Assembly: GCF_002256775.1 (NCBI RefSeq)
Contig: NZ_NCII01000090.1
Coordinates: 1 to 34,890, forward strand
Reading direction: 5' to 3'
DNA length: 34,890 bases
Source of the DNA: Novosphingobium sp. 17-62-19
Lineage (GTDB): Bacteria > Pseudomonadota > Alphaproteobacteria > Sphingomonadales > Sphingomonadaceae
Below are positions 5,751 through 13,549 of this stretch, piece by piece. Within the stretch, counting starts at the first letter, position 1; each line of letters starts with the position of its first letter. The notes under the pieces are model-generated. The model ran no database searches, was not told the DNA's origin, and worked only from the letters and a program-made list of their open reading frames with translations. Position numbers and translations under genes: made by a program.

Positions 5751-7562
5751 ATGAAATCACTTGTATCGAGCTTGGCGCTTGCCGCCGCGACGCTTGCCAC
5801 CCCCGCATTTTCCCAAAATGCGCCCGCCGATGCTGCTGCCGTGGCTGACTGGGTGAAGCAGGCTGAGGCTGAAGTGTTGGCAAAGTCGGTGGAGACATCG
5901 CGCGCCAACTGGATCTACGCCACGTACATCATCGATGACAGCGCAGCGCTGGTGGCCATCGCCAATGGTGAAGCCACTGCCATGCAAGTCGCCCAGGCCA
6001 AGCAGGCGGCGGAATATGCCAAAGTGAGCGGGCTTGCCCCCGACGTCGCGCGCAAGCTGGTGATGATGCGAACGCAGATTACCGGACCCGCGCCAAGCAC
6101 GCCCGGTGCGACGCAGGAATTTGCCGCGCTTCAGGCCAAGCTTGAGGGCATTTATGGCAAGGGTATGGGCACGCTGAAGGGTCAGCCGATCAATGGCAGC
6201 GACATCGAAGAAGCGATGGGTGCCAATCGCAACCCCGATGAGCTGAAAGAGATGTGGCTGAGCTGGCACGACAATGTCGGCGCGCCGATGAAGGCCGATT
6301 ATCAGGAGATGATCGGGATCGGTAACGCGGGAGCGCAGGAGCTGGGCTTTGCCGACATGGGCGCGTTGTGGCGGTCAAACTATGACATGCCGCCTGAGGA
6401 ATTTGCCGCGCTGACCGAGAAGATCTGGAACGAGGTGAAGCCGCTCTACAACCAGCTTCACTGCTTCACGCGCATGAAGCTGAACGAGAAGTACGGCGAT
6501 GCGGTGCAGGCGAAGAGCGGCCCGATCCGCGCAGATATTCTGGGCAATATGTGGGCGCAAGAATGGGGCAACATCTACGAAGTGGTTGCTCCAGCTGGGG
6601 CGGGCGACATCGGGTATGACGTAGGCGAGTTGCTGACGGCCAAGGGCTATGATGCGATCAAGATGGTCAAGGCTGGTGAGGGGTTCTATTCCTCGCTCGG
6701 GATGGCGCCTTTGCCGCAGACGTTCTGGGAGCGGTCGCAGTTCGTAAAGCCGCGCGATCGTGATGTGGTGTGCCATGCCTCGGCGTGGAACGTCGACAAT
6801 GTGGACGATTTGCGCATCAAGATGTGCATCAAGGTCAACGGAGACGATTTCGTCACGATCCACCATGAGCTTGGCCATAACTACTATCAGCGCGCTTACA
6901 AAAAACAGGACGCGCTCTATCTGGGTGGCGCGAACGACGGTTTCCATGAGGCGATCGGTGACTTTGTGGCGCTTTCGATCACGCCCGAATACCTGGTGCA
7001 GATCGGCTTGCTGGATCGTGCCAAGGTTCCGGCGGAGTCCAAGGACACCGGGCTGCTGTTGCGCCAGGCGATGGACAAGATTGCGTTCCTGCCGTTCGGC
7101 CTACTGATCGACCGTTATCGCTGGGATGTGTTCAGCGGCAAAATCGCTCCGGCCGACTACCAGAAGGGATGGGATGCAATGCGGCTGAAGTATCAGGGCG
7201 TGGTGCCGCCCGCTGCGCGCCCGGCCGATGGCTTTGATGCCGGGGCGAAGTATCACGTGCCCGCCAACGTGCCTTATACCCGCTACTTCCTTGCGCGGGT
7301 GCTGCAGTTCCAGTTGTATGAGGCTGCGTGCAAGCAGGCAGGCTGGAAGGGGCCGCTCCACCGCTGCAGCTTCTATGGCAACAAGGAAGTTGGTGCGAAG
7401 CTGAATGCCATGCTGGAAATGGGGGCTTCGAAGCCCTGGCCTGATGCGCTGGAAGCCTTTACCGGCAGCCGCGAGATGAGCGGCAAGGCGATGATCCGCT
7501 ACTTTGCGCCGCTGACCAAGTGGCTGGCGAACCAGACCAAGGGGCAATCATGCGGCTGGTAA
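5751..7562 (+). CDS. Exported M2 family peptidyl-dipeptidase (ACE-like zinc metallopeptidase)
   Basis: The 603-residue product begins with a signal peptide (MKSLVSSLALAAATLATPA, then FSQ). It carries the gluzincin motif HHELGH: His372 and His376 bind zinc and Glu373 is the base. The third ligand Glu400 lies in GFHEAIGD, 28 residues after the first His, exactly the spacing in human ACE. Further on, KYHVPANVPYTRYFLARVLQFQ matches the ACE segment holding the substrate His, the transition-state Tyr and a chloride-binding Arg. Members remove C-terminal dipeptides from oligopeptides. Paired Cys residues suit a periplasmic location. Together with the S9 peptidase upstream it suggests peptide scavenging outside the inner membrane. 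Confidence 0.94.
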   Translation: MKSLVSSLALAAATLATPAFSQNAPADAAAVADWVKQAEAEVLAKSVETSRANWIYATYIIDDSAALVAIANGEATAMQVAQAKQAAEYAKVSGLAPDVARKLVMMRTQITGPAPSTPGATQEFAALQAKLEGIYGKGMGTLKGQPINGSDIEEAMGANRNPDELKEMWLSWHDNVGAPMKADYQEMIGIGNAGAQELGFADMGALWRSNYDMPPEEFAALTEKIWNEVKPLYNQLHCFTRMKLNEKYGDAVQAKSGPIRADILGNMWAQEWGNIYEVVAPAGAGDIGYDVGELLTAKGYDAIKMVKAGEGFYSSLGMAPLPQTFWERSQFVKPRDRDVVCHASAWNVDNVDDLRIKMCIKVNGDDFVTIHHELGHNYYQRAYKKQDALYLGGANDGFHEAIGDFVALSITPEYLVQIGLLDRAKVPAESKDTGLLLRQAMDKIAFLPFGLLIDRYRWDVFSGKIAPADYQKGWDAMRLKYQGVVPPAARPADGFDAGAKYHVPANVPYTRYFLARVLQFQLYEAACKQAGWKGPLHRCSFYGNKEVGAKLNAMLEMGASKPWPDALEAFTGSREMSGKAMIRYFAPLTKWLANQTKGQSCGW

Positions 7563-7601
7563 AGTCGGACGCATAAATCACCCTTTTCGCATTTCCCGCT
7601 C

Positions 7602-7670
7602 AGGGCCTCTTGCCGGATCGCTTCGTTGGTGGCAGCTTGATGACACAACGAACGGGCCGGCAAGAGTCCT
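7602..7670 (+). other. Two-tier hairpin between the M2 peptidase gene and the YbjN-like gene
   Basis: A perfect 10-bp outer stem (7607-7616 with 7657-7666) encloses a 7-bp inner stem (7622-7628 with 7646-7652). A further AGG/CCT pairing is possible at the base. There is no T-run, so a classic terminator is unlikely. It ends 18 bases before the next start codon and could be a leader structure or an mRNA-stability element. The role is inferred only from the fold. Confidence 0.45.
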
Positions 7671-7688
7671 ATCGGGATTGAAGATGCG

Positions 7689-8177
7689 ATGATGTTAAAA
7701 GGCGTGTTTGCGGCACTGGCTGTGAGCGTTCTGGTTCCCTCAGCAGCAAATGCGACGACAGAGCCGACAGGCAGGGTTTCGGCGATCCAGCCGGATGGCG
7801 TGGCTCAAGCGCTTATCAACCTTGGCTACACGGCGGAATTGGCAACGGACTCCAACGGCGATCCGCTGATCAATGCTGACATCGGAGGCTGGCAGGCCGC
7901 GCTGCTGTTCTACGAATGCAACGCCAAGACCCATGATGGGTGCCAGTCGCTGCAGTTCGTGGCCAATTTTACGCCGGAGAAGAAATTTACTGCTGAAGAC
8001 GCCGTGCGTTTCAACCGGAACACCCGCTTTGCCTCGGTTTCACTGGGCAAGGACGATGCCGTGATGATGACTTGGGATGTTGTGACGGGCAAGGGCATCG
8101 ACCTTGAGGTGTTTTCCAACTCGGTCGACATGTTCCGCAGTGCGATGGACACGCTGGGCACCGAAGTTTTCAAATAG
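7689..8177 (+). CDS. Exported YbjN domain-containing protein
   Basis: The protein has 162 residues with a signal peptide (MMLKGVFAALAVSVLVPSAA, then NA). The rest resembles the YbjN family (type III chaperone-like fold): a leading PDGVAQALINLGYTAEL helix, strands around ADIGGWQAALLFYECN, and a closing helix SNSVDMFRSAMDTLG. Two Cys (ECNAKTHDGC) could form a disulfide in the periplasm. YbjN-like proteins have no agreed enzymatic role. ATG 7692 is an equally possible start. It is a single-gene unit, with a strong terminator 45 bases downstream. Confidence 0.75.
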   Translation: MMLKGVFAALAVSVLVPSAANATTEPTGRVSAIQPDGVAQALINLGYTAELATDSNGDPLINADIGGWQAALLFYECNAKTHDGCQSLQFVANFTPEKKFTAEDAVRFNRNTRFASVSLGKDDAVMMTWDVVTGKGIDLEVFSNSVDMFRSAMDTLGTEVFK

Positions 8178-8222
8178 TCAGGACCCCGCTTCGGCCACCC
8201 CGGAGCGATGGGACGCAACCTC

Positions 8223-8271
8223 GGCAATCCGCAAGCAGGGCTAGCTGCTTCGGATTGCCTTTTCTTTTTGT
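8223..8271 (+). terminator. Strong Rho-independent terminator after the YbjN-like gene
   Basis: A stem of about 15 bp pairs 8223-8238 with 8245-8259, with one bulged C at 8232 and a six-base loop. It is followed by a T-rich tract (8260-8271, eleven of the first twelve bases excluding one C and one G are T). It is one of the clearest terminators in the window. Confidence 0.9.
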
Positions 8272-8274
8272 TGG

Positions 8275-8290
8275 TCTAGTGGATTGATTT
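8275..8290. repeat. Left half of palindromic box 1, split from its partner by IS66
   Basis: The bases TCTAGTGGATTGATTT continue directly into 13357 onward if the IS66 and one target copy are removed. The restored box is a long palindrome whose mirror arm ends CCACTAGA at 13421. The last eight bases (8283-8290) are the IS target duplication. See the array entry at 13349-13553. Confidence 0.8.
8283..8290. repeat. 8-bp target-site duplication, left copy
   Basis: ATTGATTT here is repeated exactly at 13349-13356, directly outside the two ends of the IS66 element. Eight bases is the usual duplication length for IS66-family insertion. Confidence 0.92.
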
Positions 8291-8312
8291 GTATCGCTCC
8301 GGTGAGGGCCGC
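8291..8312 (+). repeat. IS66 left terminal inverted repeat
   Basis: It begins GTATCGCTCCGGTGAGGGCC and matches the inverted right end (13327-13348) at 16 of 22 positions, including the GTA tip and two six-base blocks. The target duplication abuts its first base. Confidence 0.88.
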
Positions 8313-8389
8313 CTTGCGGTGATCGGCTGATATTTCGAGATGGCACCGGTGCAAGCGCTGGTGTTTGCACCAGTACTAGGGACGGTGCG

Positions 8390-8719
8390 ATGAGTCAGAT
8401 CACGGTAATTTCAGGCCCGGAGCGGCGGCGAGTATGGACCGACCAACAGAAGCGTGAGTTGGTCGCGGCTGTTTCGGCGCCCGGGGCGAACGTGGCGGAG
8501 ATTGCCCGCCGTGCTGATCTACGGCCGAACCAGATCTACAGATGGCGACGGCAGATGGGGCAGGCAGCGCAGAGCTTTGCAGAGGTGCAGGTGCAGCCCG
8601 ATCCAGCGCCGGTGAGCGGATCGTCGATCATCGTGGAGTTCGAGCGGGCGATCGTACGCATCCCCGCTGGCGCATCACCTGGGTTGGTGTCGGCAGTGCT
8701 CCGGTCGATCAAGCCGTGA
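8390..8719 (+). CDS. tnpA: IS66 family accessory protein TnpA
   Basis: This 109-residue protein has an N-terminal helix-turn-helix of the IS3/IS911 OrfA kind: RRVWTDQQKRELVAAVSAPG, then VAEIARRADLRPNQIYRWRRQ. It is followed by a short C-terminal part with SSIIVEFERAIVRIPAGAS. This is the usual first gene of IS66 elements and probably binds the ends. The stop overlaps the GTG start of tnpB by 3 of 4 bases (GTGA), so tnpB translation is likely coupled. Confidence 0.9.
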   Translation: MSQITVISGPERRRVWTDQQKRELVAAVSAPGANVAEIARRADLRPNQIYRWRRQMGQAAQSFAEVQVQPDPAPVSGSSIIVEFERAIVRIPAGASPGLVSAVLRSIKP

Positions 8720-9063
8720 TCCCAGTTCCCTCCGGCGTCCGGATATGGATCGCGACCGGGCATACCGATATGAGGAAGGGCATGCGATCCCTGGCCCTGC
8801 AGATACAGCAGAGCTTCAGGCGTGATCCCCATGCCGGTGATCTTTATGTCTTCCGAGGGCGCCGTGGCGACCTGTGCAAAATCCTGTGGCATGATGGCAT
8901 TGGCATGTCGCTCTATGCCAAGCGCCTGGAGCGCGGGAAGTATATCTGGCCATCGGCTGTAGACGGGGTGATTGCCATCTCCGCCTCCCAGTTGGCTTGC
9001 ATGCTGGAGGCGATCGACTGGCGTAATCCGCAAGCGACCTGGCGGCCGACCCTGGCCGGATAA
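8716..9063 (+). CDS. tnpB: IS66 family accessory protein TnpB
   Basis: The 115-residue product begins at GTG 8716 as VIPVPSGVRIWIATGHTDMR and continues with MRSLALQIQQSF, DLYVFRGRRGDLCKILWHDG and SLYAKRLERGKYIWP, all hallmarks of IS66 Orf2 (TnpB). The frame is open further upstream to 8542, but that portion lies inside tnpA and shows no family resemblance. TnpB is required for transposition together with TnpA and TnpC, though its biochemical role is unclear. Confidence 0.92.
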   Translation: MIPVPSGVRIWIATGHTDMRKGMRSLALQIQQSFRRDPHAGDLYVFRGRRGDLCKILWHDGIGMSLYAKRLERGKYIWPSAVDGVIAISASQLACMLEAIDWRNPQATWRPTLAG

Positions 9064-9110
9064 TCAATGTCGGAGAGCTAAAAAGCTAGAGATTCCGGTG
9101 CTTTTCTGCT

Positions 9111-10516
9111 ATGCCTTTGGGCATGGGTGACGCGGCGCAAGCAGAGATCCAGAGCCTTCGCGCGCAGCTCGCCGCAGCCCAGGCGGTCGCCGCTGAAGTG
9201 GCCCGCATCAAAGCCATCAACGCCGACCTGGAAGCCCGTAACGCCCTTCTCGAACTGCAGAACGAGAAGATGCGCCGCACTCTTTTTGGCCAACGCTCCG
9301 AGCGCACGCGCCATCTGCTCGACCAGATGGAACTGACCTTCGAGGAGTGCGAGACCGCTGCCAGCGAAGATGAGCTTCTGGCTGCCCTGGCAGCGGCGAA
9401 GACCAACGTCGCACCGTTCGAGCGCAAGCGGCCCGCCCGCAAGCCCTTGCCCGAACATCTTCCACGCGAACGCGTCGTCATCGCCGCGCCCGATGCCTGC
9501 CCCTGCTGCGGCTCGGATCGGCTGTGCAAGCTGGGTGAGGATATCACCGAGACACTTGAGGTCGTGCCGCGCCAGTGGAAGGTGGTCCAGACCGTGCGGG
9601 AGAAGTTCTCCTGCCGGGATTGTGAGAAGATCACCCAACCGCCGGCGCCTTTCCACGTCACGCCCCGCGGGCTATTTGGCCCCAGCTTCCTGGCGATGCT
9701 GCTCTTCGAGAAGTTCGGTGCGCATCAACCGCTTAACCGCCAGCGTGATCGCTACGCCCGGGAAGGCGTCGACCTGAGCCTTTCCACTCTGGCCGATCAG
9801 GTCGGCACCTGCACCGCCGCGCTGATGCCGCTCTATCTGCTGATCGAAGCCCACGTCCTTGCTGCCGAGCGATTGCATGGCGACGATACAACGGTGCCAG
9901 TGCTGGCCAAGACCAAGACCGATACGGGCCGGATCTGGACCTATGTTCGGGATGATCGACCTTTTGGCGGACCGGCACCGCCCGCAGCGATCTTCCATTA
10001 TTCCCGGGACCGGCGGGGCGAGCATCCTGTGGGCCATCTGCGCGGTTGGAGAGGCATTCTTCAGGCTGATGCCTATGCTGGCTATAATGCCCTGTTCCAT
10101 GGCGACCGCCTGCCGGCGCCGCTGACCCGCGCCCTTTGCTGGAGCCACGCGCGCCGTTATTTCTTCGAGCTGGCCGATATCGCCGCGCAGCTCAAGAAGC
10201 GCCGCAAAAAGGCCGTCATCTCGCCGTTGGCAGTGGAGGCGGTCCGCCGCATCGATGTGATCTTCGACATTGAGCGCGCCATCAACGGCAGACCGGTACA
10301 GGAGCGCCACACCCTTCGACAGGAACTCAGCGCACCTCTGGTTGCCGATATGGAAGAATGGATGCGCGACAACCGGTCAAAGCTATCGAAGAACAGCGAT
10401 GTGGCCGAGGCTATGGATTATATGCTCAAGGCATGGCCTGCATTTACCGCCTTCCTCGACGATGGCCGCATCTGCCTGACGAACAATGCGGCGGAACGGG
10501 CGCTCAGAGGCATTGC
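9111..10516 (+). pseudogene. tnpC: IS66 transposase TnpC, 5' portion (interrupted)
   Basis: The first 468 codons encode an N-terminal coiled coil (LRAQLAAAQAVAAEVARIKA and onward), a zinc finger (CPCC at about 125, then FSCRDC), and the IS66 DDE catalytic domain. HGDDTTVPVL and LQADAYAGY supply the two Asp and NNAAER the Glu (Glu462). The cassette interrupts codon 469, six codons past that Glu codon. The C-terminal 73 residues resume at 13102. The frame happens to stay open through the cassette to 12860, but everything after Ala469 is antisense to the recombinase and not transposase. The rejoined gene would encode 541 residues, the normal length. Confidence 0.93.
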
Positions 10517-10530
10517 AACGACCGATTCAT
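10502..10530. other. Left recombination site (att) of the serine-recombinase cassette
   Basis: Transposase sequence ends at ...GGCATT, followed by the dinucleotide GC (10515-10516), which is also present at the right junction (13102-13103). Ten bases inside the cassette lies TCAT (10527-10530), mirrored by ATGA (13088-13091) at exactly the same distance inside the right end. Large serine recombinases leave a 2-bp shared core, as seen here. Confidence 0.75.
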
Positions 10531-10544
10531 ACTACACCTCCTCT

Positions 10545-12614
10545 TCAAATGTCCGGAAACAGGGACTTTTGGTTTTCCATTTTGATGCGACACGGGCCTC
10601 TGTGACGCGGGAACTGGGTCACTTCGTCCTTTTCCAGGTCCGTGGCTCGGATTTGGTGCGGCGCATCGGGTACAACTTGCTCGGTAGGGAGCACGCCCTC
10701 CTTGATCAGTCGACGGACCCGATGGGCAGTAACCCCAAGCTTTTTGGCGGCTTCGGTCAGCGTGAGCCACTCTCCATTCTTTTCGGCGGATCGGTAGCCG
10801 TGGATTTTGTGGACAGTGCGCAGCGAGCCGACACGGCGCGCTGTCCAGGTCTTGCCTTGTCCGGTTTGCATTCCCATCCGGTTGAGAGTGGCGGCAATGT
10901 CTGCATCGGACCACCGGGTGGCCATGGAGCGGATGATGGCAAGGGCGGCTTCGGGCGTACTCTGGCCATGTTCGCCTGCTTTGGGTTTGCGAATGCGCAG
11001 CTGAGAATGTTGGCCACCTTTCCAGTGGATCGTCAAAATGACTTCACGTTGCTCTTCATCGACATCAGCGATGATATCGGTCACGAGCGTGCGGAGGAGC
11101 TGCTGACGACAACGCATGTCGACGTTAGGCGAGCGCCAAGCGGTCTCCAGGTCGGTGGCAATGCCAGCAAAATCGGGCGCCGGCGCGGCCAGATCGATTT
11201 GTCGCGCTTGGGCCAAACCCGCTTCATAGGCTTCAACACGCCTGAGCGCTGCTTCCCAGCTATTCTCAAGTTGGGCAGCGATCAGGCGGTTATCAGGGTC
11301 GCAGGCAGCATAGCGACGTTCAGCGAGAGATGCCTCGTATCGGGCTTGCTGCAAGTCCAGCTCCACCATGCGGTGCCGTTCTTCCAGATTATCCCGATGC
11401 GCCCGATCAGCTTCCATTGCGGCCTCGATCGCCATCGGCGTCACGGCTCTCAATATCTCTTTGCCTATGGCAGGGTCGATGCGAGATGCGCCAAAAGTCA
11501 TGCATCGTGGCTTGGCCAGCATCTGGTTGATACGTTCGCAGCGGTAATAGGGATGACCCGGAGGCCGGCCCGAATAGACAACGCCCAACCGTCTTCCACA
11601 TCGGCCGCAGGTGAGCAGGCCCGCGAGCAACGCGCGGCCACCACGACCCGACTTGATGCCGCCCTTCTGTCCGAACGCGTTGACGGCGATATGGCTCTGG
11701 TTCCTCTCAAACTCACTCCAATCGATATAGCCTTCGTGATGATCCTGGAGCAGCACTTCCCACGTTCCAAAGGGCTTGCTGTGGCCGTAACTTTTGCGTG
11801 CCCTGCCATCGACAATCTCGGTTCGCTTCTCGCTTTTACCATAGACATAGACCCCAGCGTAGAAGGGGTTCTTCAGGATCGAAATAACGCTTCGATAGCG
11901 AACCGGCACCCAGTCGAAGGACACCGTTTTGCGGCCGTCAGAAGGGCGGGGAAAATGGAAATTGTCAGCTGTCAGCGAAATCAGCACCTGGCGGGCGCTG
12001 CCAAGCTCGCGGAAACGCGAAAAGATGAGGCGGATCGCCTCCTGTACCCGGATATCGGGATCCAGCCCCAGGCCGTATTCGCGGTGCCAGATATAGCCGA
12101 TCGGAACACTGAGGCGCAGTTCTCCCCGCCTTGCCTTGGCGCGCGCCGCGTCAAGCATGCGTGTTCGCAAAATGCCAAGCTCAAACTCGCTGATGCTGCC
12201 CTTCATGCCCAACAACAATCGATCGTTTGGTCGACAGGGATCGTATACCCCGTCGAGATCGATCACGCGCGCTTCAACCAGGCCACACAGCTCCAAAAGG
12301 TGGTGCCAGTCCCGGCCATTACGGGAAAGGCGCGATGCGTCCAAGCAAAGCACCGCGCCAACCTTGCCCGTGCACAGGCCGCTGACCAGTCGTTCGAAAC
12401 CGGGGCGGTCGACAGTGCCGCTGGCGGTCCGACCAAGGTCATCGTCGATCACCTCGACATCGTGAAATCCCCAGCGTCGCGCAACATCGACAAGCTCATA
12501 TTGTCGGCGCTGGCTCTCCAGGTTGTTCTGGACCTGACCCGGGGTCGACTGTCGGACATACACCACAGCTTTGCGCTTGAGCACCGTGACTGGAAGGAGA
12601 TCATTGCCCGTCAT
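10545..12614 (-). CDS. Large serine recombinase with zinc ribbon, coiled coil and C-terminal helix-turn-helix
   Basis: The 689-residue protein opens with a resolvase/invertase catalytic domain: VVYVRQSTPGQ with nucleophile Ser23, and CLDASRLSRNGRDWHHLLEL. A recombinase domain follows, then a zinc ribbon (LLTCGRCGRR then YYRC...KPRC). A coiled coil around NLEERHRMVELDLQQARYEA comes next, and finally two C-terminal DNA-binding segments, one (LTEAAKKLGVTAHRVRRLIK) like excisionase/MerR helix-turn-helix. Such enzymes join attP to attB and may need a partner protein to excise. ATG 12614 has AAGGAGG seven bases upstream. It overlaps the 61-residue gene by 14 bases. The extra C-terminal HTH is less common and could direct the choice of site. 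Confidence 0.93.
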   Translation of the reverse strand: MTGNDLLPVTVLKRKAVVYVRQSTPGQVQNNLESQRRQYELVDVARRWGFHDVEVIDDDLGRTASGTVDRPGFERLVSGLCTGKVGAVLCLDASRLSRNGRDWHHLLELCGLVEARVIDLDGVYDPCRPNDRLLLGMKGSISEFELGILRTRMLDAARAKARRGELRLSVPIGYIWHREYGLGLDPDIRVQEAIRLIFSRFRELGSARQVLISLTADNFHFPRPSDGRKTVSFDWVPVRYRSVISILKNPFYAGVYVYGKSEKRTEIVDGRARKSYGHSKPFGTWEVLLQDHHEGYIDWSEFERNQSHIAVNAFGQKGGIKSGRGGRALLAGLLTCGRCGRRLGVVYSGRPPGHPYYRCERINQMLAKPRCMTFGASRIDPAIGKEILRAVTPMAIEAAMEADRAHRDNLEERHRMVELDLQQARYEASLAERRYAACDPDNRLIAAQLENSWEAALRRVEAYEAGLAQARQIDLAAPAPDFAGIATDLETAWRSPNVDMRCRQQLLRTLVTDIIADVDEEQREVILTIHWKGGQHSQLRIRKPKAGEHGQSTPEAALAIIRSMATRWSDADIAATLNRMGMQTGQGKTWTARRVGSLRTVHKIHGYRSAEKNGEWLTLTEAAKKLGVTAHRVRRLIKEGVLPTEQVVPDAPHQIRATDLEKDEVTQFPRHRGPCRIKMENQKSLFPDI

Positions 12615-12786
12615 CGCTGGCCTCCTTCGCCGCGACGCCGGCTGCGGCCATCAAGAGGGTCGCCAGCCTGGCAACAACGGCGCTTCGCTGCGCCTCGCTC
12701 AGGCCTCGCATCTGCGGCGTATCGAGCGGCATGCTCAGCTGCTGGGTCAGCATCGGTAGCGACGAGGGTCGTGGTAGTGCCTTCAT
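12601..12786 (-). CDS. Small cassette protein of 61 residues, unknown function
   Basis: The predicted product begins MKALPRPSSLPMLTQQLSMP and has a helical segment (SEAQRSAVVARLATLLMAAA). The frame is open to 12858, but ATG 12786 is strongly preferred because AGGAGG lies seven bases upstream. The stop overlaps the recombinase start by 14 bases, implying coupled translation and joint work with the recombinase, possibly as a directionality factor or subunit; this is inference only. No family was recognised with certainty. The well-placed ribosome site and overlap support it being real. Confidence 0.65.
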   Translation of the reverse strand: MKALPRPSSLPMLTQQLSMPLDTPQMRGLSEAQRSAVVARLATLLMAAAGVAAKEASDDGQ

Positions 12787-13069
12787 GGCGCGCCTCCTGG
12801 ATGGCCGTGAGTCCATCCGTCGAAGTCTGCCTGAAACCGCGATCGGTAAGCAGTCCATGAAGCTCTACAAGCCCAATCACCGCAACGCGCGGTTCGCCCA
12901 TCTCCATGTCGGCGCACAACGCCCTGTCCAGCATCCACTCTGCGACCTGGATGATCTCACCCGGCCTGATCTCTACCCGGATGATCGCGCCATTGGCCCG
13001 GTCCTCGCGGCCTTCATGCCGAAAACGACCGCCGTAATATGGATGCCAGCGATAATGAAACTCTACCAT
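12611..13069 (-). CDS. Cassette protein of about 152 residues, DUF5372-like N-terminal part
   Basis: It starts at MVEFHYRWHPYYGGRFRHEG. The aromatic HPYYGGRF pattern and the following strands (AIIRVEIRPGEIIQVAEWML) recall the small DUF5372 proteins found beside recombinase genes, although this match is from memory. The middle part PRVAVIGLVELHGLLTDRGF looks folded. The last ~55 residues overlap the 61-residue gene in another frame and look low in complexity, so the true C terminus is uncertain. The frame also extends upstream to 13120, but those codons lie outside the cassette in tnpC. It is the promoter-proximal gene of the three. Confidence 0.55.
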   Translation of the reverse strand: MVEFHYRWHPYYGGRFRHEGREDRANGAIIRVEIRPGEIIQVAEWMLDRALCADMEMGEPRVAVIGLVELHGLLTDRGFRQTSTDGLTAIQEARHEGTTTTLVATDADPAAEHAARYAADARPERGAAKRRCCQAGDPLDGRSRRRGEGGQR

Positions 13070-13087
13070 CTGCCCGACATGGGCAGA

Positions 13088-13117
13088 ATGACCCTGCGAT
13101 GGCCCTTGGAAGAAAAT
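13088..13117. other. Right recombination site (att) of the serine-recombinase cassette
   Basis: Cassette sequence ending CTGCGATG meets GC (13102-13103) and then CCTTGGAAGA of tnpC. ATGA at 13088-13091 mirrors TCAT at the left end, each ten bases from the GC. Joining the two cassette ends gives an attP candidate with partial two-fold symmetry (7 of 14 positions per half). Confidence 0.72.
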
Positions 13118-13323
13118 CATGGCTCTTCGCTGGGTCAGACCGCGGCGGTCAGCGCACCGCCTTCATGCTGAGCCTCATTGGCACGGCGAAGCTCAACGAT
13201 ATAGATCCCCAGGCTTGGCTAGCCGATGTGCTCAGCCGCATCGCCGACATCCCCCAGAACCGTCTCCAAGAACTGCTGCCATGGAATTGGCGAGCCGCCG
13301 AATATCAACGCGAAGCCGCCTGA
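13102..13323 (+). pseudogene. tnpC: IS66 transposase TnpC, 3' portion (separated from its 5' part)
   Basis: The frame encodes ALGRKSWLFAGSDRGGQRTA and then MLSLIGTAKLNDIDPQAWLADVL and LQELLPWNW, the conserved C-terminal domain of IS66 transposases, ending with a stop at 13321-13323. Upstream of 13102 the frame enters the cassette. ATG 13099 could in principle start it, but it lies in cassette DNA and has no ribosome site. Confidence 0.9.
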
Positions 13324-13326
13324 TCC

Positions 13327-13348
13327 GCGGCCTTCACCGAATGCTTAC
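13327..13348 (-). repeat. IS66 right terminal inverted repeat
   Basis: Read on the minus strand from 13348 it begins GTAAGCATTCGGTGAAGGCC, the typical GTAAGC tip of IS66 ends, and matches the left end at 16 of 22 positions. It starts three bases after the tnpC stop. Confidence 0.9.
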
Positions 13349-13356
13349 ATTGATTT
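13349..13356. repeat. 8-bp target-site duplication, right copy
   Basis: ATTGATTT is identical to 8283-8290 and directly abuts the right terminal repeat. Confidence 0.92.
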
Positions 13357-13400
13357 TGACATTTGCATCCCCTGTCGGTTGGGATGGGTCTGCAAATGTC

Positions 13401-13486
13401 AAAATCGTAAAATCCACTAGAATCAAAAGCTTCTAGTGGTCCGAAAATCGTAAAATCCACTAGAATCAAAAGCTTCTAGTGGTCCG
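13401..13486. repeat. Tandem direct repeat, two exact 43-bp copies
   Basis: 13401-13443 and 13444-13486 are identical. Each copy holds the small palindrome CCACTAGAA-TCAAAAGC-TTCTAGTGG. The 43-base period equals one 33-base box plus the 10-base spacer, so the tandem repeat is the signature of box 2 amplification. Confidence 0.92.
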
Positions 13487-13549
13487 AAAAGATTCTGACA
13501 TTCGAACGTCGCCTAACCTTATACGGTACCGAATGTCAGAATCGGACCA

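Follow-up and report, generated by a model that had tools for sequence, protein, structure and literature searches.

A minimal serine-recombinase cassette at a conserved site in IS66 transposase genes: a candidate mobile element with relatives in other mobile-element genes

In a 34,890-nucleotide stretch of contig NZ_NCII01000090.1 from Novosphingobium sp. 17-62-19 (hereafter the window), the transposase gene tnpC of an IS66 insertion sequence (IS) is split in codon 469 by a cassette of 2,587 bases that holds a large serine recombinase gene and two small open reading frames (ORFs), orf1 and orf2. Comparison with related loci makes it highly probable that this cassette is an autonomous, site-specific mobile element that uses a site in IS66 tnpC and is able to leave one IS66 and enter another, unrelated one. 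The initial annotation of the window had placed the split between two copies of a shared GC dinucleotide (Table 1) and had proposed an element that might propagate by inserting into IS66 tnpC genes; the borders are borne out exactly, and the proposal is supported by the presence of the cassette at the same tnpC codon in 51 of 58 loci that are readable at both ends.

An empty site and a recurrent insertion point

The uninterrupted form of the site occurs naturally. An IS66 on plasmid pBSY17_1 of Sphingobium sp. RAC03 (locus L159) matches window positions 8291-10516 at 99.82% identity over 2,226 bp and positions 13099-13348 at 99.6% over 250 bp; its tnpC is uninterrupted with the site intact, and subtracting it from the window leaves exactly the 2,587-bp cassette between the shared GC dinucleotides. 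Joining the flanks at this point restores the tnpC frame exactly, as the initial annotation had held; it had also proposed a search for uninterrupted IS66 copies with the joined site. A second intact IS66 relative (L160) matches at 89% and 94% in its left and right parts, and the assembly from which the window comes (149 contigs), where the cassette is single-copy, contains a second, intact tnpC with an empty site. Each cassette end carries one GC and no other duplication is seen at the borders, an arrangement that is consistent with strand exchange at a 2-bp core.

Relatives were drawn from a genome collection (the best 80 of 136) and from a class survey, which added a few more; among plasmid records, 542 had a match at any identity and 12 had a best match of at least 80% identity. 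Carriers include the laboratory sphingomonads Rhizorhabdus wittichii RW1 and Sphingobium wenxiniae. We tabulated 79 loci (the window being L001), locating the cassette ends from two landmarks at constant distances from the core, the ATG past the recombinase stop and a motif in orf1: both ends could be read in 58 loci, one end in 17, and neither in 4, with the motif or upstream sequence missing in 12 and the ATG end in 9, mostly in truncated loci. Host DNA at each end was scored against four intact reference TnpC proteins (E ≤ 0.05) for loci with a recombinase identity of at least 57%. The 58 loci readable at both ends hold 52 distinct recombinase sequences, and the 51 with a coherent tnpC pair at the same codon comprise 47 in the orientation of the window and 4 in the opposite one (L016, L017, L046, and L047). 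The codon offset was identical at 117 of 121 junctions, even across tnpC genes with identities down to 19% in the compared part; homologous cassettes thus share one flanking site, the initial annotation having named their scatter among unrelated genes as evidence to the contrary.

On both sides of the cassette, tnpC is present in 52 loci. The core is GC at both ends in 38 of these, and the others have CC/CC (3), AC/AC (2), CA/CA (1), GT/GT (1), or unequal pairs (7). GC is its own reverse complement, which would allow the cassette to lie in either orientation and agrees with the occurrence of both. Loci L007 (GC/GT) and L014 (GT/GC) have mirror-image unequal cores in related hosts, a pattern that would be expected for a mismatched core resolved by replication and that suggests tolerance of core mismatches. 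In one further locus (L034) each side of the cassette holds a C-terminal tnpC part, the two coming from different tnpC genes, as an inversion by recombination at the core between two copies of IS66 would leave them.

Independent movement of the cassette

Recombinase and tnpC identities were compared in 36 loci that retain enough of both genes. In 18 pairs the recombinases are at least 97% identical while the tnpC genes are less than 60% identical; between the window and L011, recombinase identity is 100% and tnpC identity 39.5%, and a single genome, that of Rhizobium johnstonii 3841, has two loci (L043 and L044) with 100% identical recombinases in tnpC genes that are 43% identical. Over 630 pairs the rank correlation between the two identities was weak (Spearman 0.21). 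Since near-identical recombinases sit in divergent tnpC genes, the cassette appears to be mobile and to move independently of its IS66 hosts.

The recombinase

The protein has the architecture of a large serine recombinase, with a catalytic domain (residues 16 to 165; PF00239 Resolvase, E = 1.1e-22), a Recombinase domain (191 to 309; PF07508, 2.3e-18), and a zinc ribbon (329 to 383; PF13408 Zn_ribbon_recom, 5.2e-08) in that order from the N terminus. An excisionase-like helix-turn-helix (HTH) lies near the C terminus at residues ∼613 to 645 (TIGR01764, 9.8e-05, below its cutoff; PHROG excisionase, 2.4e-04) and might represent a fused directionality factor. The best NCBIfam model was XisF (NF041201), whose score of 83.4 bits is far from the cutoff of 375 and makes the protein a distant relative only. 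IS607-type serine transposases were rejected (NF033518, 19.7 bits versus 110), the catalytic domain being N-terminal and not placed after the DNA-binding domain, as were the CcrA, CcrB, and CcrC recombinases of staphylococcal cassette chromosomes (32.6 to 45.1 bits versus NCBIfam equivalog scores of 700 to 900). The closest solved structure by sequence was YokA of SPbeta, and the TnpX structure (PDB 2mhc) matched in the catalytic domain only (E = 1.8e-4). DUF4368 was absent from the six Pfam families matched at E ≤ 0.001; this domain is not universal in the TnpX/TndX multitargeting clade, and the available part of one survey gives its occurrence there as 63% (PMC10083194). None of the 132 phage records with a match covered at least 80% of the recombinase, and the cassette itself, filled by its three ORFs, contains no structural or conjugation genes of the kind that would mark a prophage or an integrative and conjugative element (ICE).

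A reading frame joined across the cassette ends

The initial annotation was right about the 689-residue recombinase, the two small ORFs, and the 28 bases that separate the recombinase stop codon from the cassette border, but the larger of the small ORFs, as read in the window (12611-13120), runs past the border into tnpC, and a conserved start for it is located at the opposite cassette end. There, a Shine-Dalgarno-like sequence is followed by an ATG 14 bases ahead of the core, and this ATG comes into frame with orf1 at the opposite end once the two ends are joined. In a first count the joined frame was open over 130 codons in 58 of 58 loci, whereas shifting the joint by 1 or 2 bases reduced the medians to 45 and 33 codons and the maxima to 89 and 134; as the ends had been found by fixed distances, this result was partly produced by construction and was replaced, and the per-base conservation of the cassette ends is affected in the same way. 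The decisive test used loci in which tnpC, with the shared offset, sets both borders, as it does in 50 of 52, from which 3 Burkholderia and Brucella loci were removed: the joined frame was open in 47 of 47 (134 to 179 codons; 42 different sequences). It was also open in all 11 distant members evaluated with the joint set by continuity of the host gene, namely, the IS4-type loci L079, L080, L082, L083, L087, and L088, the istB locus L145, the tnpB locus L148, the IS3 locus L149, and L075 and L091 at a second tnpC site.

The Shine-Dalgarno-like motif is present in 56 of the 58 loci of the wider set, and in 35 of 58, not including the window, the first 25 orf1 codons on the attR side contain no ATG, GTG, or TTG. 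From these patterns we infer that orf1 contains the attachment site of the free element (attP) and that only a free circle would provide the operon with its conserved start. A small SH3-like barrel is predicted for orf1 (residues 6 to 56 of the folded part). Neither of the small overlapping ORFs (12601-12858 and 12611-13120) had a Pfam match at E ≤ 0.001. The orf2 frame and its C-terminal motif are kept in relatives, as judged by eye from 14 of 33 relatives.

Relatives in other mobile-element genes

Distant relatives of the recombinase (31 to 46% identity) interrupt other mobile-element genes, mostly with one clade per target. Hidden Markov model matches of the gene flank adjoining the recombinase identified as hosts IS4-type transposases (L079, L080, L082, and L087), a second site in IS66 tnpC (L091), IstB (L092, L098, and L146), IS110 (L093), DDE_3 of the IS630 type (L096), IS66 TnpB (L143, L148, L157, and the second recombinases of L007 and L039), IS21 IstA (L152 and L153), IS3 (L149 and L125), rve (L150 and L129), reverse transcriptase (L151 and L126), the IS91 zinc domain (L132), DDE_Tnp_1_4 of the IS1380 type (L139), and, in one case, peptidase M15 (L127). 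A quick tree of 91 recombinases, with some long branches, placed 37 outside the tnpC clade, and a host gene could be assigned for 34 of these (25 by Pfam or NCBIfam and 9 by eye, own profile, or identity), of which 33 are mobile-element genes. With "unassigned" counted as a label, host labels change 19 times on the tree (minimum, 16; shuffled mean, 40.1; 0 of 200 shuffles as low), a clustering that is owed partly to near-copies. The IS4 hosts, both tnpB sites, the second tnpC site, reverse transcriptase, tyrosine integrase, istA, and the C-terminal istB site each form a single group with support of 99 to 100, the IS3 group has support of 87, and three changes are required for the Walker-A istB label. 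The family is not ubiquitous: at E ≤ 1e-60 the recombinase has matches in 13 of 398 genomes of the phylum and 7 of 396 of the order.

These observations lead us to favor, with moderate confidence, a broader interpretation in which a large family of minimal serine-recombinase elements parasitizes mobile elements, its clades being directed to conserved and often active-site motifs of recombination proteins, with an attachment site in the first gene, cut on integration and rebuilt on circularization, that would serve as a switch between the integrated and free states; transposons would thereby be silenced by naturally occurring elements that are themselves able to spread. The targets in this interpretation are IS66 TnpC and TnpB (two sites each), IS3, IS4-type, IS21 IstA and IstB, IS91, IS110, IS630-type, and IS1380-type proteins, tyrosine integrases, and a group II intron reverse transcriptase.

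Three further observations concern individual members. L007 and L039 each carry another member of the recombinase family in IS66 tnpB (10939-13059 and 6802-8853, respectively), a few kilobases from the one inserted in tnpC. In the istA-targeting loci L152 and L153 the recombinase is preceded upstream by a gene with DUF5372 and by an additional HTH gene, and Variovorax sp. WS11 has three identical recombinases (L079, L080, and L081) in IS4-type genes of two subgroups.

Alternative explanations and contrary evidence

The recombinase might instead be a passenger that an ancestral IS66 acquired once and that spreads as a composite by IS66 transposition. The IS66 and cassette match as one unit of ∼5 kb, with the further surroundings unmatched, in L008/L057 and in L007/L014, and an 8-bp target duplication flanks the composite in the window. 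Against this stand recombinases at least 97% identical in tnpC genes with identities down to 38%, even within the one R. johnstonii genome, together with the weak correlation of the two identities, the occurrence of both orientations, and the existence of a near-identical empty IS66. The discordance between recombinase and tnpC leads us to reject a passenger as the full explanation, which we consider very improbable, and likewise to reject a single ancestral integration followed by codivergence; transport inside a moving IS66 would be a secondary route that either occurs or is at least compatible with the comparisons. Somewhat less improbable, although still unlikely, is an intron- or skin-like element kept for precise excision that restores tnpC and regulates the IS, comparable to the fdxN element and XisF at nif genes. 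The exact restoration of the tnpC frame, N-terminal tnpC halves that remain open over at least 430 codons in 27 of 47 loci with enough flank, and the rank of XisF as best NCBIfam model, despite its low score, are all in keeping with such a role; yet reversible integration, with which this account is compatible, does not need a host benefit, the other 20 of 47 N-halves are decayed, and the cassette moves among unrelated IS66 elements. Chance has next to no probability: IS66 genes could be so common on such plasmids that any mobile element would turn up in them, and the relatives are not independent, as similarity to a single recombinase led to all of them and the genome scan retained the best 80 of 136, but the identical offset at nearly all junctions across divergent tnpC genes rules out chance placement, and distant recombinases use different genes, mostly with a target of their own per clade.

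Several observations weigh against a site-specific element with a start switch, besides the ∼5-kb composite units. Our picture of excision, the circle, integration, and expression derives from sequence comparison. Among loci readable at both ends, 7 of 58 lack a coherent tnpC pair: L034 has the tnpC C-part at both ends, tnpC is at one end only in L028, L052, L060, and L066, and it is at neither end in L045, which by eye resembles a decayed tnpC, and L031, which lies outside IS66 and by eye in the gene of a SHOCT-like short-motif protein. Of the loci readable at one end, 13 of 17 have tnpC there, with none detected at E ≤ 0.05 in L024, L065, L070, and L085. Many cassette copies have decayed, as the 20 N-halves that are not open and 12 broken recombinase genes among 64 show (the window is counted twice among the 52 intact ones). 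A search of the cassette for sigma-70-type promoters returned 0, with 0.8 expected by chance. With respect to the switch, the first 25 orf1 codons on the attR side contain some ATG, GTG, or TTG in 23 of 58 loci, and the flank has an in-frame ATG in 18 of 58; the window belongs to both groups, with an in-frame ATG about ten codons into orf1 and another in the flank, and orf1 may therefore be translated after integration as well.

Proposed mechanism and relation to known systems

For a site-specific element we propose that the recombinase recognizes a DNA site formed by the conserved tnpC codons (NNxAERAxRxx/xxGRKNWLFAGS) and would exchange strands at a 2-bp core, usually GC. The element would travel as a circle whose attP the recombinase joins to the tnpC site, most likely by serine-recombinase chemistry, and the same enzyme would later release it to enter another, unrelated IS66. 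The circle would rebuild orf1 with its Shine-Dalgarno sequence and ATG, such that the operon is read properly outside a host and is switched down by integration. By disabling the host TnpC, insertion would make the element a parasite of the IS that also silences it, and direction could, speculatively, be set by the excisionase-like C-terminal domain, orf1, or orf2. The wider recombinase family would follow the same plan at other mobile-element genes, with clades on conserved motifs of their own.

We found no description of such a recombinase family in the literature searched. What appears new relative to the precedents, of which single ones exist, is serine-recombinase elements that are site specific for the genes of other mobile elements. 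In Tn4451 and Tn4453 a large serine recombinase, TnpX, is the mobility protein, as is proposed for the present cassette. By its title, one study reports that the circular intermediate of Tn4451 forms a promoter for TnpX (Lyras and Rood 2000, in PMC13023037); in contrast, the junction of the cassette circle would rebuild the start of a protein gene and not a known promoter, and the target is a single conserved coding motif. Phage and ICE integrases (phiC31, Bxb1, and SPbeta YokA) have the same domain order and use conserved coding sites, and in the available part of a survey of serine recombinases the targets are magnesium chelatase, prolyl isomerase, and competence genes, not transposases (PMC10083194); the cassette, however, is 2.6 kb and has no phage or conjugation genes. 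ICEKp1 and ICEclc, for which the source as available describes circle-specific integrase promoters, are alike in that end joining puts a start signal before genes at the other end (PMC13023037), but there the signal is a promoter, whereas the cassette would supply a ribosome site together with a start codon, both within its attachment site. Cyanobacterial gene-interruption elements, such as the fdxN element with xisF, are the nearest precedent, as there too a coding gene is split by an element that contains a serine recombinase gene; in the part available to us, a survey of cyanobacterial interruption elements counts transposase genes among those interrupted and presents no family devoted to them, and many of its hosts are nitrogen-fixation or other cell genes with excision in heterocysts (PMC4874684).

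If these interpretations are correct, the elements constitute a class of autonomous elements specialized on insertion sequences and recombination genes, i.e., hyperparasites of transposons, and a natural mechanism of IS silencing that is able to spread with IS families on conjugative plasmids. They would provide many recombinases for which the sequence itself reveals the attB and attP sites, with core dinucleotides that differ in some cases, and because the attachment site also forms the start of a gene, the state of the element could be read by translation. They may also account for many of the tnpC, tnpB, istB, and IS4-type "fragments" annotated beside a lone recombinase on rhizobial and sphingomonad plasmids.

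Features of the window

The host has the full set of IS66 features, with tnpA, tnpB, the interrupted tnpC, terminal inverted repeats, and an 8-bp target duplication (Table 1). The N-terminal part of tnpC matches PF03050, PF13005, PF13007, and NF033517, and its start, at 9111 in the window, is annotated in L159 at the equivalent of 9123. The initial annotation put the break six codons past the catalytic Glu; the conserved Glu of AERALRGI, the presumed catalytic residue, is seven codons before codon 469.

Table 1. Coordinates of the cassette and of its IS66 host in the window
Feature	Position	Strand	Remarks
Inserted cassette	10517..13103	-	2,587 bp; recombinase operon antisense to tnpC; from comparison with the empty site in L159
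GC at tnpC N-part junction (attL)	10515..10516		Putative 2-bp crossover core; same offset in 60/60 N-type half-sites
GC at tnpC C-part junction (attR)	13102..13103		Putative core
Large serine recombinase	10545..12614	-	689 aa
orf2	12601..12858	-	Small ORF overlapping the recombinase start
orf1 body (HSAHVGQMVEFHYRWHP...)	12611..13101	-	Conserved start at opposite cassette end
Cassette 3' end	10517..10543	-	Shine-Dalgarno-like GAGGAGGTG, ATG at 10529-10527, first orf1 codons; in frame with orf1 on joining
Conserved cassette end adjoining core, CATCGCAGGGTCATTCTGCCCATG	13078..13101	-	Putative recombinase arm of attP; 67 sequences, conservation partly by construction (found by motif search over part of the stretch; 67 of 79 loci matched)
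Host IS66	8291..13348	+	5,058 bp with cassette, 2,471 bp without; limits are the ends of the L159 match
IS66 terminal inverted repeats, GTATCGCTCCGGTGAGGGCCGC / GTAAGCATTCGGTGAAGGCCGC	At element limits 8291 and 13348		Imperfect
IS66 8-bp target duplication ATTGATTT, left copy	8283..8290		
IS66 8-bp target duplication ATTGATTT, right copy	13349..13356		
IS66 tnpA	8390..8719	+	HTH_Tnp_1
IS66 tnpB	8782..9063	+	TnpB_IS66; start set by correspondence with the annotated L159 gene
tnpC N-terminal part	9111..10516	+	468 codons and first two bases of codon 469
tnpC C-terminal part	13104..13323	+	Rest of codon 469, LGRKSWLFAGS... to stop; NF033517 profile 340-387

Just to the right of the IS66, at 13400-13500, a stretch of ∼47 bases (aaaatcgtaaaatccactagaatcaaaagcttctagtggtccg) occurs twice in tandem, and a sequence related to it (CTAGTGGATT) lies to the left of the IS66 at 8276.

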